NCBI GenBank assembly: GCA_030622125.1
Contig: JAUXGM010000115.1
Span: forward strand, 1 to 7,009
Direction of reading: 5' to 3'
DNA from: a bacterium
GTDB taxonomy: Bacteria > AUK180
Length of the DNA stretch: 7,009 nt
Made by a program: the position numbers and the translations under genes. This document shows positions 1,910 through 7,009 of this stretch, piece by piece. Position 1 is the first letter of the stretch. Every line of letters starts with the position of its first letter. The notes under the pieces were generated by a model. The model had not been told where the DNA came from. It saw nothing but the letters and a program-made list of their open reading frames with translations, and made no database searches.

Positions 1910-1936
1910 AGAACAAGAAAAATAATGGAGCTCAAT

Positions 1937-2713
1937 ATGAATATTGTTATATTTAAAATAATTGCTTTTATTACTATTCTAATTACTGGTATATGTGGAG
2001 GTTTTCTATCTTTATGGCTTGCAACATCAAAAAAAAGTGAGCGATTATTCTCATTAGGAAATGCATTTGCCGGAGGTATTTTTTTAGGTGCCGGATTGAT
2101 CCATATGCTCCCTGATGCCCAGGAAGGACTTGGTCATTTAGGCAGAAATTATCCATGGGCTTTTTTAATTTGTGCAATTGGCTTTCTCATGATCCTCTTT
2201 CTGGAAAAAGTAGTAATACGAAGTCATTCTGCTGTTGCTAACTCCTTAGTAGAAAAAACCAGGGCAAGATTTTATCCTTATATGTTAACATTGGTATTAT
2301 CCGTTCATTCCATTATTGCAGGTATTGCTTTGGGTACAGAAAATAAAGTAGGATTATCGATCGTAATTTTTATTGCTCTGATCTCACATAAATGGTCTGC
2401 TGCTTTTGCATTGGGTGTAAGTCTTATAAGGGCTGATATACAAAGATCAAAGATAAAAAAGATATTAATTCTCTTCTCTTTTGCTACTCCGGTAGGAATT
2501 ATCTTAGGTATTACACTGGATACTGTTTTAATGGGAAGATCTGAAGCAATTGTTGAAGGAATATTTGATGCTATTGCAGCTGGAACATTTTTATATGTAG
2601 CAATCGTCAATGTATTTAATAAAGAATTTAAACAGCATGAAGACAGGTGGTTAAAATTCTTAATGTCAATAATTGGACTTGTCGTAATGGCGTTACTTGC
2701 AATCTGGACATAG
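1937..2713 (+). CDS. ZIP-family divalent metal transporter
   Basis: A very hydrophobic protein of 258 residues with the segments of the ZIP (Zrt/Irt-like) family, which moves Zn2+ or related divalent metals into the cytoplasm. The start at 1937 is chosen because GGAG (1927-1930) lies 6 nt upstream; an in-frame ATG at 1925 would add four residues (MELN) and lacks such a site. Numbering from 1937, a membrane segment contains LGAGLIHMLPDA (H56), like the HMLP/HLLP signature of ZIP TM2. TM4 has SVHSIIAGIALG (H124), TM5 has SHKWSAAFALG (H151, K152), and a late segment has AAGTFLYVA, the ZIP GTFLY signature. The HK..AF form of TM5 is closer to animal ZIP1-3 than to bacterial ZupB/BbZIP types. TM4 has Ala (residue 128) where the HxxxE Glu of the transport site is usual. 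The central His-rich loop is absent. Cargo cannot be read from the sequence. Confidence 0.85.
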   Translation: MNIVIFKIIAFITILITGICGGFLSLWLATSKKSERLFSLGNAFAGGIFLGAGLIHMLPDAQEGLGHLGRNYPWAFLICAIGFLMILFLEKVVIRSHSAVANSLVEKTRARFYPYMLTLVLSVHSIIAGIALGTENKVGLSIVIFIALISHKWSAAFALGVSLIRADIQRSKIKKILILFSFATPVGIILGITLDTVLMGRSEAIVEGIFDAIAAGTFLYVAIVNVFNKEFKQHEDRWLKFLMSIIGLVVMALLAIWT

Positions 2714-2823: not shown

Positions 2824-3831
2824 ATGAACCTATTGATAGATATACTTAAAACACCATCTGTTTCCGGTTACGAAAGTGGTTTAAAAAATGTTATACTGGA
2901 CAAATTCAAAGAATACGGATTAATTACCGCTGTTTCTCCGCTCGGTAATATTAGCGGTAAACGAATGGGAACATTCCCTTATACGATCCTTATAGATGCC
3001 CATTATGACCAGATCGGGCTTATTGTTAAGAAAATAGAAGAAAACGGAATGATCAGGGCACAAAATGTCGGCGGAGTTGATCCCAGAGTGCTTTTCAATC
3101 TTCCATTAAAAATATTTGGGAACGAAATTGTTAAGGCAGTTGTTGCCACCAAACCTCCCCACCTCCAGAAAACAAAAAATAAGAACAAAATCCCGAAGAT
3201 TTCAGAATTCTTGATAGACACGGGATTGAGTAAAAAAGAATTGAGTTCAAAGATCAGAATTGGTGACCCCATTTTTTTTGATGTTGAGCCGGAGATCATG
3301 GGAAACTACATATCGAGTCCTGCAATAGATAATAAAGGAGGTTTGTGGGTGCTTTTGAAACTTGCTCAGTTTTTGAAGTCATACAAAGCGGTTCCATCCG
3401 TAATTCTTCGCGCAACCGTTCAAGAAGAGGTCGGTTGTCGGGGTGCCGCTAATAGGGTTGATGATCTTTACGATCTTGCTGTGGTAATTGATGCGACATT
3501 TGCGACTCAACACCTTGCCGATGATGATCATACCTTCCCTATTGTTGGTGGCTTAACGATAATGTATGGACCGAATTACTCAAAAAAGATAAATGAGAAA
3601 TTTGAAAATGTCGCCTCAAATAATCATATAAAATTTCAAAGAGAGGTAGAAGAATCCGTTTACGGAACAAATGCTTATAGATACAGCGTTTCAGGAAATC
3701 ACGCCACCTGCGGGATCTCTTATCCGATCTTCAATATGCATACCCCGAATGAAGTAGTAGCAATACCTACTTTGTTAAGCATAGTTGAATTATTGACGAA
3801 TTTTATAAAAAAATTCGGGGGGAATAAATGA
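2824..3831 (+). CDS. M42 family (TET-type) metalloaminopeptidase, paralogue 1
   Basis: A 335-residue protein, normal length for M42 peptidases: cytoplasmic two-metal aminopeptidases that form tetrahedral dodecamers and trim short peptides. The N-terminus LLIDILKTPSVSGYE is typical. Expected active-site residues are all present: H60 and D62 in AHYDQIG, bridging D169 in AIDNKGG, catalytic E201 and ligand E202 in QEEVGCRGA, D223 in VIDATFAT, and H306 in NMHTP. The insert between D62 and D169 is the PDZ-like oligomerisation domain. Small departures from the usual consensus are Gln after AHYD (usually Glu), Lys in DNK (usually Arg) and GTNA for GTDA. It is the first gene of a block of three M42 paralogues and overlaps the next by ATGA. 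M42 proteins are often misannotated as endoglucanases. Substrate preference is unknown; the neighbouring ZIP gene may help supply metal. Confidence 0.92.
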   Translation: MNLLIDILKTPSVSGYESGLKNVILDKFKEYGLITAVSPLGNISGKRMGTFPYTILIDAHYDQIGLIVKKIEENGMIRAQNVGGVDPRVLFNLPLKIFGNEIVKAVVATKPPHLQKTKNKNKIPKISEFLIDTGLSKKELSSKIRIGDPIFFDVEPEIMGNYISSPAIDNKGGLWVLLKLAQFLKSYKAVPSVILRATVQEEVGCRGAANRVDDLYDLAVVIDATFATQHLADDDHTFPIVGGLTIMYGPNYSKKINEKFENVASNNHIKFQREVEESVYGTNAYRYSVSGNHATCGISYPIFNMHTPNEVVAIPTLLSIVELLTNFIKKFGGNK

Positions 3832-4847
3832 TGAATTTCGCGGTAAAATTATCCAATGGATTCGGCCCATCCGGTTGTGAAACAGAGATAAGGGAACTCA
3901 TAAAACAGGAATTAAAAGAATATAATATAAAATTCAAAACAACATTTCTCGGAAGTTTAATTGCAACCAAAGAAGGAAAAATTAAAGATCAAAGAGTTAT
4001 CATTACGGCACATACGGATGAGGTTGGATTTATTATTTCAAAGATAAATAACGATGGAACACTTTCATTTAGAAAATTAGGCGGTATAGATGATCGGATA
4101 TTGCCTTCAAAAAAAGTAGTAATTGGGAGAAAGAGAACAAAGGGAATAATAATGTTTCCGCAGATCCATCTTTTTCCCCCAAAGGATATCGTTAAGTTAA
4201 AAGATCTGAGAATATTTATCGGTGCTACAACCATGGAGCAAGCAGCAAAAAAGGTTACCATTGGTGATTACGCTACCTTTGCTACAAAGGGAGAAATTAG
4301 AAATGGACAACTTTGGGGAAAAGCATTAGATGATCGTATCGGGTGTTTTGTGTTGTCTGAAATCTTGAAAAAGAATTGGAATATCGGCATTACGGGAATA
4401 TTCAATTCACAGGAAGAGGTAGGTTGCCGAGGCATAAAATCCGCTTTACACAATGCCAAAGGGACTTATGGACTTGCAATAGAGGGTACAACCGCTTACG
4501 ATATTGATGATTCATTAGATATATCTCCGTCAACGGAGCTTGGTCTTGGTCCAGCAATTACAATCATTGATCGAATGTCAATAGGAAATCCCAATATGAT
4601 AAAATTAATGGAGTTTGCTGCAAAAAAGAAAAAAATTCCATTTCAATACAAAAGAACCGCTACCGGCGGTACGGAAACCTATTTTCTATTAAGAAATAAA
4701 CAAGGGCTTCCGGCACTATGTATTTCCGTCCCCGTTCGTTATATCCATTCACCCCTTGGTATGTGCCTGGAAACAGATGTAAAAAATACGATCAGCATAA
4801 TTGAACAGTGGCTACTTGAACTTGAAAAAAAAGTGGAGGAAAAATAA
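3828..4847 (+). CDS. M42 family (TET-type) metalloaminopeptidase, paralogue 2
   Basis: A 339-residue M42 peptidase with the cleanest active site of the three. H62 and D64 are in AHTDEVG, D168 is in KALDDRIG, E196 and E197 are in SQEEVGCRG, E219 is in AIEGTTAYD (Glu at a position that is Asp or Glu in the family), and H307 is in VPVRYIHSP. The region between residues 64 and 168 is the oligomerisation domain. TGGTETYF at 279-286 replaces the usual GGTDA. The start overlaps the stop of paralogue 1 (ATGA), and a second ATG follows immediately at 3831. A run of six G (3817-3822) is the only SD-like sequence and is better spaced for 3831, so either Met may be used. Its stop (TAA) directly abuts the ATG of paralogue 3. 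Expected to be an active aminopeptidase; specificity unknown. Confidence 0.93.
   Translation: MMNFAVKLSNGFGPSGCETEIRELIKQELKEYNIKFKTTFLGSLIATKEGKIKDQRVIITAHTDEVGFIISKINNDGTLSFRKLGGIDDRILPSKKVVIGRKRTKGIIMFPQIHLFPPKDIVKLKDLRIFIGATTMEQAAKKVTIGDYATFATKGEIRNGQLWGKALDDRIGCFVLSEILKKNWNIGITGIFNSQEEVGCRGIKSALHNAKGTYGLAIEGTTAYDIDDSLDISPSTELGLGPAITIIDRMSIGNPNMIKLMEFAAKKKKIPFQYKRTATGGTETYFLLRNKQGLPALCISVPVRYIHSPLGMCLETDVKNTISIIEQWLLELEKKVEEK
4835..4839 (+). promoter_or_regulatory. Shine-Dalgarno site for paralogue 3
   Basis: GGAGG within the last codons of paralogue 2 lies 8 nt before the ATG at 4848. This is a strong site, showing that the degenerate third paralogue is set up to be well translated in its own right. 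Confidence 0.75.
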
Positions 4848-5834
4848 ATGACGATCAACATAAAACTTTTAAGACAACTTACACAAGCTTATAGCCCTTC
4901 GGGATATGAAGATGATATCTCTAAAATTATTTTCGATCATCTTAAAAAACTGGAATTGGAACCGAAAAAAGATCTTCACAATACTGTAAAAATTACAATG
5001 GGAAAAGGACAAAAAAAAGTTCTCGTTACCGCACACATTGATGAGATTGGAATAGTAGTAAACCATATAGATGAGAGAGGTTTTCTCAAGGTCTCACCAA
5101 TTGGTTTTCAGTATGATGAAGGAATATCCGGCAGTCGTGTAATTTTTAAAAATGGAAAGTTGGGAGTTCTTATTAAGGAAGGAAATAATAATGATGATCT
5201 CTTTCTTGATATTGGTGCAAAAAATAAAAAAAATGCTGAAAATTTACTACCGGTTGGAAGTTTCGGAGTTTTTGTAGGGGATCTAATAGAACTTGATAAC
5301 AATAGAATGATCTCTAAAGCAATGGATAATAGAATAGGTGTTTATGTCCTCTTAAAAACAATAGAAAGATTAAAAACTTATGATCTTCAAAATGAGATAA
5401 CCTTTGCATTTACGGCTCAGGGTGAGTTTTCCGGTCTTGGTGCGGTAACCACAGGCTACTCAATTGCCCCCGATCTTACAATTTCCATTGGCATTGCAAA
5501 AGCAACCGATACGAGATCCGAAACCGATAATACCATATTTTTAGATCAAGGGATTGTTATCAAGGTAATGGATCATTCGCTGATAGCACATCCTTTGTTA
5601 AAAAATTATTTCATTGATCTTTGTGAAGATAAGAAGATCCCTTATCAATTGGAAGTCATATCCGAAGGTCAGTCGGATGCAGCGTATATCTCTCTTTTAA
5701 ATAAAGGAGTTCCTGCTATTGGACTTTCTATTCCTGCGAGATATACACAGAAAGCATTGGAGATGGTTTCAAAGTCGGATGTAGAGAACGCTATAAAAAT
5801 ACTTTATGAGGGATTAAAAGGCACTTTAATATGA
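4848..5834 (+). CDS. M42 family protein, paralogue 3, with degenerate active site (probable pseudoenzyme)
   Basis: A 328-residue M42 homologue, full length and in frame. Retained: the N-terminal LLRQLTQAYSPSGYE, H63 and D65 in AHIDEIG, D160 in AMDNRIG, E193, and EGQSDAAYI (residues 273-281) matching the usual GGTDA region. Lost: the catalytic Glu of QEEVG is Gly192 (QGEFS), the metal-ligand Asp/Glu of the 'VDVT' motif is Gly215 (ISIGIAKAT), and the C-terminal ligand His of 'RYIHSP' is Gln301 (RYTQKA). A two-metal centre and normal hydrolysis are therefore unlikely. The frame is uninterrupted, the ribosome site is strong and the gene is coupled to its neighbours, arguing for a maintained function rather than decay. 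Likely roles are a structural or regulatory subunit of a mixed TET complex, or peptide binding; both are inferences. The region between D65 and D160 is about ten residues shorter than in the other two. It overlaps the next gene by ATGA. Confidence 0.88.
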   Translation: MTINIKLLRQLTQAYSPSGYEDDISKIIFDHLKKLELEPKKDLHNTVKITMGKGQKKVLVTAHIDEIGIVVNHIDERGFLKVSPIGFQYDEGISGSRVIFKNGKLGVLIKEGNNNDDLFLDIGAKNKKNAENLLPVGSFGVFVGDLIELDNNRMISKAMDNRIGVYVLLKTIERLKTYDLQNEITFAFTAQGEFSGLGAVTTGYSIAPDLTISIGIAKATDTRSETDNTIFLDQGIVIKVMDHSLIAHPLLKNYFIDLCEDKKIPYQLEVISEGQSDAAYISLLNKGVPAIGLSIPARYTQKALEMVSKSDVENAIKILYEGLKGTLI

Positions 5835-6637
5835 AAAATTCTAAGGAAGCAGCAGATTTTATTAGAAAGGGATTTGATGGTAAGGTGGACCTTGCAATAA
5901 TAGAGGGCTCCGGAATAGATACCTTTGATGATACTTATGAAAAAGTTTTTTCTGCTTCCTACCGTGATATACCACATTTTCCACTATCAACAGTTGAAGG
6001 GCATGCCGGTCAATTTTCCGTTTATAAAAAAGGCAACAAGGCAATAGCGGATTTTAAGGGTAGAATTCATTTTTATGAGGGCTACTCTATGTGGGATGTT
6101 GTTTTTCCCATAAGGTTGGTCTATCATCTTGGAATAAAAAATATTCTTTTAACAAATGCTGCCGGGAGTTTAACAAAGGCTATTGAACCGGGAGACCTTA
6201 TAATATTAGAAGATTATATAAATTTTGCTCAGAATAATCCGCTAATAGGTTATGAGCCCGAATTCGGTGAACGGTTTGTTGATATGAGCGACCCGTTTGA
6301 TAAAAGAATGATAAAGACTGCTGTGACGATCTATGAGAAATTAAATTTTCCCGTTAAATATGGTGTATATGTATTTCTTACGGGTCCAACTTACGAAACT
6401 TCCTCCGAAGTCAAAATGATAAGACTTCTTGGTGGTAATCTTGTCGGGATGTCTACTGTTCCCGAACTTATCATGGCAAGGCAGATGGGAATAAATGTCT
6501 TAGGTATTTCCCTGTGCACCAATTTTGGTACAGGTATATCGGATACTCCTTTATCTCATAGTGAAGTAATTGAAACAGGCAAACGTGCAAAGAGAAAATT
6601 AAAAGATTTTTTTAGAGAATTTACAGATGTTTTATAA
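5831..6637 (+). CDS. Purine nucleoside phosphorylase, trimeric (PNP/MTAP family), 6-oxopurine type
   Basis: A 268-residue protein, standard for trimeric PNPs, which split inosine or guanosine with phosphate to base and ribose-1-phosphate in purine salvage. Motifs in order: phosphate-binding GSG at 26-28 (S27), VEGHAG with H58, KGRIHFYEGY with R78, H80, Y82 and E83, TNAAGSL with N109 and A110, DYIN at 128-131, GPTYET with Y188 and E189, VGMSTVPE with M207, LCTN with T230 and N231, and H243. E189 plus N231 correspond to Glu201 and Asn243 of human PNP, which select 6-oxopurines, and GMSTVPE rather than the NMTTVPE type argues against methylthioadenosine phosphorylase. The GSG loop continues as IDTF rather than the common LG, slightly MTAP-like. 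It overlaps the stop of M42 paralogue 3 (ATGA), with AAGG (5818-5821) 9 nt upstream. It is part of the M42 operon, and its last codons overlap the DHH gene. Confidence 0.93.
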   Translation: MKNSKEAADFIRKGFDGKVDLAIIEGSGIDTFDDTYEKVFSASYRDIPHFPLSTVEGHAGQFSVYKKGNKAIADFKGRIHFYEGYSMWDVVFPIRLVYHLGIKNILLTNAAGSLTKAIEPGDLIILEDYINFAQNNPLIGYEPEFGERFVDMSDPFDKRMIKTAVTIYEKLNFPVKYGVYVFLTGPTYETSSEVKMIRLLGGNLVGMSTVPELIMARQMGINVLGISLCTNFGTGISDTPLSHSEVIETGKRAKRKLKDFFREFTDVL

Positions 6638-7009
6638 AAAAGAGGATTGGCAAAAATTCAGATTTAATCAAAAAAAAATAGATGAAACATCATTTAAGCT
6701 CGGCATTGAAAAAAAGATCGTAGCTTTTTATTTGAAAAGAAATCGCGAAACGCTTTTGTCATTTTTGGAGAAAGATTTTCCGCTATATATGGAATACGAT
6801 GCAACCGTAAACATAAATGCAGCAGCTCAATTTTTGGGATCCGCTTTTAAAAAAGATGAAAAAACATTGGTGTTGTATGACTGTGATCTTGATGGCTATG
6901 GTGCTATGAAGATACTTTCCCTTATTAATGAAGAAGGCTTTAAAAGCCACAATATATTTTATAAGGAATTCTGGAAAAATATTCCGCTTTTTGAAGTTGA
7001 AGATGCGAA
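6627..7009 (+). CDS. DHH-family phosphoesterase, RecJ-like, N-terminal part (runs off the window)
   Basis: The frame opens with ATG at 6627, overlapping the end of the PNP gene by 11 bases, and stays open to the window edge (127 codons plus two bases), so the 3' part is missing. Residues 79-97 read KTLVLYDCDLDGYGAMKIL; D85, D87 and D89 followed by Gly form motif I (DxDxDG) of the DHH phosphoesterase superfamily. Having about 84 residues before motif I is like RecJ single-strand exonucleases, whose N-terminal lead is of similar length, and unlike the short NrnA-type proteins. The DHH motif itself and any DHHA1 or OB domain would lie beyond the edge, so RecJ versus another DHH enzyme cannot be settled. 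The overlap suggests translational coupling to PNP. Confidence 0.7.
   Translation, partial: MFYKKEDWQKFRFNQKKIDETSFKLGIEKKIVAFYLKRNRETLLSFLEKDFPLYMEYDATVNINAAAQFLGSAFKKDEKTLVLYDCDLDGYGAMKILSLINEEGFKSHNIFYKEFWKNIPLFEVEDA

Follow-up and report, generated by a model that had tools for sequence, protein, structure and literature searches.

The third of three tandem M42 peptidase genes (W1, W2 and W3) in the 7,009-nucleotide stretch of DNA analysed here, referred to as the window, is by its sequence an M42 non-peptidase homologue, i.e. a pseudoenzyme in which catalytic residues are missing and the gene is intact. W3 is likely kept for a function, and our best guess places its product in a mixed particle with those of W1 and W2. 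The more general arrangement, a three-gene M42 row with an inactive, retained member, has firmer support than W3 itself.

The three M42 genes and the following purine nucleoside phosphorylase (PNP) gene overlap or abut on the forward strand (Table 1). The ATG at 2824 was taken as the start of W1, while the TTG at 2752 is also open. The loop of W1 contains a PPH motif and that of W2 the loop His (QIHL). W3 is an open frame of 328 amino acids without stops. The fourth M42 gene of the genome lies on another contig and has an intact active site.

Table 1. Features of the window and residues altered in W3.
Feature	Position	Strand	Remark
ATPase-like gene	in window	+	named from sequence only
ZIP-family metal transporter	1925-2713	+	directly upstream of the zinc-type peptidase (M42) genes
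W1, first M42 paralogue (p1 clade)	2824..3831	+	7/7 active-site residues intact
W2, second M42 paralogue (p2 clade), TM1049-like	3828..4847	+	active site intact
W3, third M42 paralogue (p3 clade), TmPep1050-like	4848..5834	+	predicted to be catalytically dead, predicted fold intact
W3 shortened active-site loop EGNNNDD, residues 111-117	5178..5198	+	6 residues shorter than family orthologues
W3 Gly192, replaces catalytic Glu	5421..5423	+	codon GGT
W3 Gly215, replaces Asp metal ligand	5490..5492	+	codon GGC
W3 Ser276, replaces conserved Thr of GGTD	5673..5675	+	codon TCG
W3 Gln301, replaces His metal ligand	5748..5750	+	codon CAG
PNP	5831..6637	+	4 bp overlap with the W3 end
RecJ/DHH-like gene, start	6627..7009	+	named from its sequence alone

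Alignment of W3 with the characterised M42 enzymes TmPep1050 and PhTET2 identified the columns of G192, G215 and Q301 as those of the catalytic Glu, an Asp ligand and a His ligand, respectively. In PfTET3, metal M1 is bound by His314, Asp177 and Glu208, and metal M2 by His63, Asp177 and Asp230 (PMC4745047); by this equivalence W3 has lost one protein ligand per metal. It further differs by T276S from the otherwise near-invariant GGTD motif. All seven active-site residues are kept in 497 of 538 distinct M42 sequences (domains from all fetched loci), so the losses in W3 are not a matter of chance. An earlier, sequence-only reading had named the three replaced codons and listed H63, D65, D160 and E193 as remaining, and it was correct on both counts. 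It had also held that a single sequencing error does not explain the two base changes at codon 192; nor can one such error account for several codons altered independently while the frame stays open. Its description of W3 as otherwise intact holds for the open frame and the complete predicted fold, but overlooked T276S and the six-residue shortening of the loop. With the general base gone and each metal site short of one ligand, W3 is nearly certainly unable to hydrolyse peptides, and its metal binding should be poor. Judged by its residues, it does not qualify as an active M42 aminopeptidase, which has the catalytic Glu and a complete two-metal site.

The fold appears to have been preserved. 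W3 matched the Pfam M42 profile (PF05343) over the whole domain with 214.8 bits (cut-off 23.2), and its AlphaFold2 model was complete (pLDDT 93.5, pTM 0.93; structure modelling was confined to single chains), with PhTET2 and TmPep1050 as the best structure matches (TM about 0.9; PDB 1xfo, 1y0r and 4p6y). In this model W3 adopts the M42 fold, with both its catalytic domain and its PDZ-like oligomerisation domain, the latter being predicted to be intact.

The age of the loss was assessed in seven genomes of the phylum, i.e. the window's own, four others of the same family and two of the same class. A protein scan of genome contigs with W3 as the sole query gave no matches, and an alignment scan recovered relatives, none of them from the window's genus. 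The M42 trio was present in the same gene order in all seven genomes. PNP follows it in 5/5 family genomes and lies near it in both class relatives, and the RecJ-like gene is found downstream in 5/5 family genomes and, among the phylum genomes, only there. A ZIP-family transporter gene was not seen adjoining the trio in the relatives examined. The third gene has the normal Glu, Asp and His in all six other genomes (four family, two class), which confines the dead state to the lineage of the window; a conserved dead p3 in the phylum is ruled out. No comparison shows the dead form being passed to any descendant, and the family orthologues are all intact. The joint conservation of G192, G215 and Q301 that the sequence-only reading had asked about is thus absent. 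Its proposal of a maintained pseudoenzyme survives in part: a dead yet intact subunit is well supported, but the close orthologues are normal, a result that the reading itself had named as speaking against the idea.

The same operon contains dead members elsewhere. In a tree of the M42 domains, p1, p2 and p3 formed separate clades (support 0.975, 1.0 and 1.0). Counting as a trio M42 frames that lie on one strand with less than 700 bp between them, we found 150 trios in several phyla, with a dead p1 in none, a dead p2 in 36 and a dead p3 in 4, frequencies that are not a census as the sample came from searches centred on three genomes and from the alignment scan. The 36 dead p2 proteins belong to relatives of L061 (dead p2 at 2973-3989), a Clostridia MAG with the isolate name Lapin-003-2, thus to gut bacteria distant from the window's lineage, and form one clade with support of 1.0 (other listed loci: L133-L150, L154, L155, L158, L159, L192, L198, L199, L209, L212, L220, L224, L228, L230, L241, L246, L248, L249). 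Because the p1 and p3 proteins from these genomes form clades as well (support 0.997 and 0.941), inheritance of the dead p2 looks vertical, and many separate origins are ruled out by the single clade in each of the three trees. Early-branching members such as L155 lack the catalytic Glu alone, and others have lost further ligands.

The dead p2 of Clostridia is under purifying selection, with pairwise Nei-Gojobori dN/dS values of 0.08-0.19, mostly about double what p1 and p3 show in these genomes. Identity in the PDZ-like domain is 0.62 for dead p2, 0.63 for p1 and 0.58 for p3; in the catalytic C-terminal half it is 0.39 for dead p2 versus 0.70 for p1 and 0.66 for p3. AlphaFold2 returned a complete fold for L061 p2 (pLDDT 89.3), and the oligomerisation domain and the loop are retained. 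The dead Clostridia p2 thus bears the marks of a maintained pseudoenzyme, and its long retention is strongly supported. Dead M42 subunits can evidently persist for long in this operon, given a 36-genome clade under purifying selection, and a dead second paralogue kept in these genomes makes the idea of a maintained pseudoenzyme stronger than it would be from the window alone.

The four dead p3 proteins are those of the window, L233, L250 and L184. L233 (582-1544; Clostridia relative) reads NDSKEDF at the seven active-site positions. L250 (2477-3418; also a Clostridia relative) reads GDGSQED and looks strongly decayed; by tree it falls inside the dead-p2 clade, but by position and best match it is p3, and it was not counted as p2. 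In L184 (2654-3670), a relative of the Anaerolineae MAG L100, the single change is that of the second Glu of EE to Lys, and in an M42 of L100 itself (2859-3884) only this Glu is changed, to Gly. Two further irregularities were noted: the missing p2 of G073 reflects a contig end and not gene loss, and in the G006 trio the match to the first M42 gene (L041:8271-9218) contains a TAA in frame, possibly a pseudogene or an assembly error.

On balance we lean towards W3 being a non-catalytic subunit, structural or regulatory, of a mixed TET-type particle into which it would assemble with the active W1 and W2. W3 shares an operon-like row with two active paralogues; the trio together with PNP is conserved through the phylum. 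We infer that W3 is under selection, that it binds W1 and W2 and that it has a role in the particle. The loop His helps to choose between roles. Searched as a regular expression, its motif is present in 36/36 dead and 108/114 active p2 proteins of the trios and in only 3 of 146 active p3 proteins. As the dead p2 retains the motif, it could still serve a neighbour; W3, like nearly all p3 proteins, lacks it and is more simply read as having a structural or regulatory role. Against a mixed particle, removing one metal already loosens the PfTET3 dodecamer (PMC4745047), and W3 is expected to bind metals poorly.

Also against it, the acceleration of W3 extends somewhat to the PDZ-like part (rate ratios on a fixed topology: 2.27 for the catalytic part, 1.57 for the PDZ-like part). 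Such changes outside the active site, together with the shortened loop, would fit a W3 repurposed alone, e.g. as a peptide or ligand binder that oligomerises with itself and stays apart from W1 and W2. We consider this unlikely, since W3 keeps its strict position beside two active paralogues and the dead paralogue of Clostridia keeps its oligomerisation domain and loop.

Likewise unlikely in our judgement is that W3 is an early pseudogene which recently lost activity in its lineage and has not yet acquired a stop. The third gene is active in all relatives, another genome (L250) has a highly decayed dead p3, and the W3 branch is accelerated: in paralogue trees its length, taken from the family ancestor, exceeds the orthologue mean by a factor of 2.04 (W1, 1.01; W2, 0.81). 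The loss could have been very recent, with few neutral changes since. However, the excess of W3 over its orthologues amounts to about 0.48 changes per site, roughly 150 residues, without a stop. In a rough simulation of neutral change, with target bases drawn by composition, the median number of substitutions up to the first stop was 15, and the chance of at least 100 amino-acid changes without one was about 0.001 at kappa 2. Conserved structural columns were moreover kept: of 49 p3 columns with a conservation of 90% or more among active p3 proteins, W3 keeps 42 and breaks seven. Two of the seven (the G86 column and S195) are changed in family relatives too according to the family alignment, and four of the five lineage-specific breaks lie in the active site (E192, D215, T276, H301). 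The hypergeometric chance of at least four of five is about 0.004, a hand calculation with ten active-site columns among the 49 chosen by the analyst. With no stops, a complete predicted fold and lineage-specific losses concentrated in the active site, decay of W3 is unlikely. Maintenance of W3, which the rate, the distribution of changed sites, the lack of stops and the dead members that this operon has in other genomes together suggest, is likely.

Residual hydrolase activity through an altered metal site might be argued from the remaining H63, D65, D160 and E193, but with Gly as the general base, one ligand of each metal gone and T276 changed it is very improbable. An assembly or sequencing artefact might be suspected, as the contig is short (7009 bp) and the draft genome is split into 192 contigs, but is scarcely credible: several codons differ independently by more than one base, and the frame is open, folds well in prediction and has a normal codon-position composition.

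A broader version of the mixed-particle reading, which we put forward only tentatively and regard as rather doubtful, is that the products of the p1-p2-p3 operon form an obligate mixed TET particle whose subunits divide catalysis and support among themselves. The loop His of p2 may reach into the active site of a neighbour, p3 having no loop His of its own; p2 might then lose its own active site and remain needed, because it would help p3 in trans. In the window it would be p3, the opposite member, that turned non-catalytic.

Paralogous M42 peptidases have mostly been studied singly, as homo-oligomers. Our data suggest that a member of the M42 trio can die and yet be kept, once anciently (p2 in Clostridia) and separately in individual lineages (p3). 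Kept dead members point to a mixed particle with a division of labour, in which some subunits need not cut, and they constitute natural loss-of-function variants for the proposal that the flexible loop of one TET subunit serves the active site of its neighbour. Neither a maintained M42 pseudoenzyme nor a three-gene M42 row with an inactive, retained member was found described in the open literature searched, most subscription journals lying outside this coverage.

Among known systems, ClpP/ClpR offers a parallel in principle: ClpR, a paralogue without activity, is retained among the subunits of a compartmentalised peptidase, albeit one of unrelated fold and serine chemistry. Within M42, the structures titled TM1049 and TM1050, and also 1vho, are homologues of the window trio. 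TmPep1050, the M42 leucyl aminopeptidase of Thermotoga maritima (PDB 3isx/4p6y), is, of the solved structures, the one that W3 matches best in sequence, and has the same fold (TM about 0.9), but possesses all seven active-site residues, whereas W3 lacks three of the seven and has the GGTD Thr changed in addition. Association of M42 paralogues is seen in Bacillus subtilis, where YtoP and YsdC (PDB 9a5r) were crosslinked to each other in cells (PMC10090944), but these form a pair and not a trio. The mixed-subunit TET particles of Pyrococcus, to which the sequence-only reading had referred, are indeed on record: in P. horikoshii, the paralogous M42 subunits PhTET2 and PhTET3 share one mixed dodecamer (PMC4220976). 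Both of these partners are described as active and no dead member is described, whereas the trio of the window includes the dead W3.
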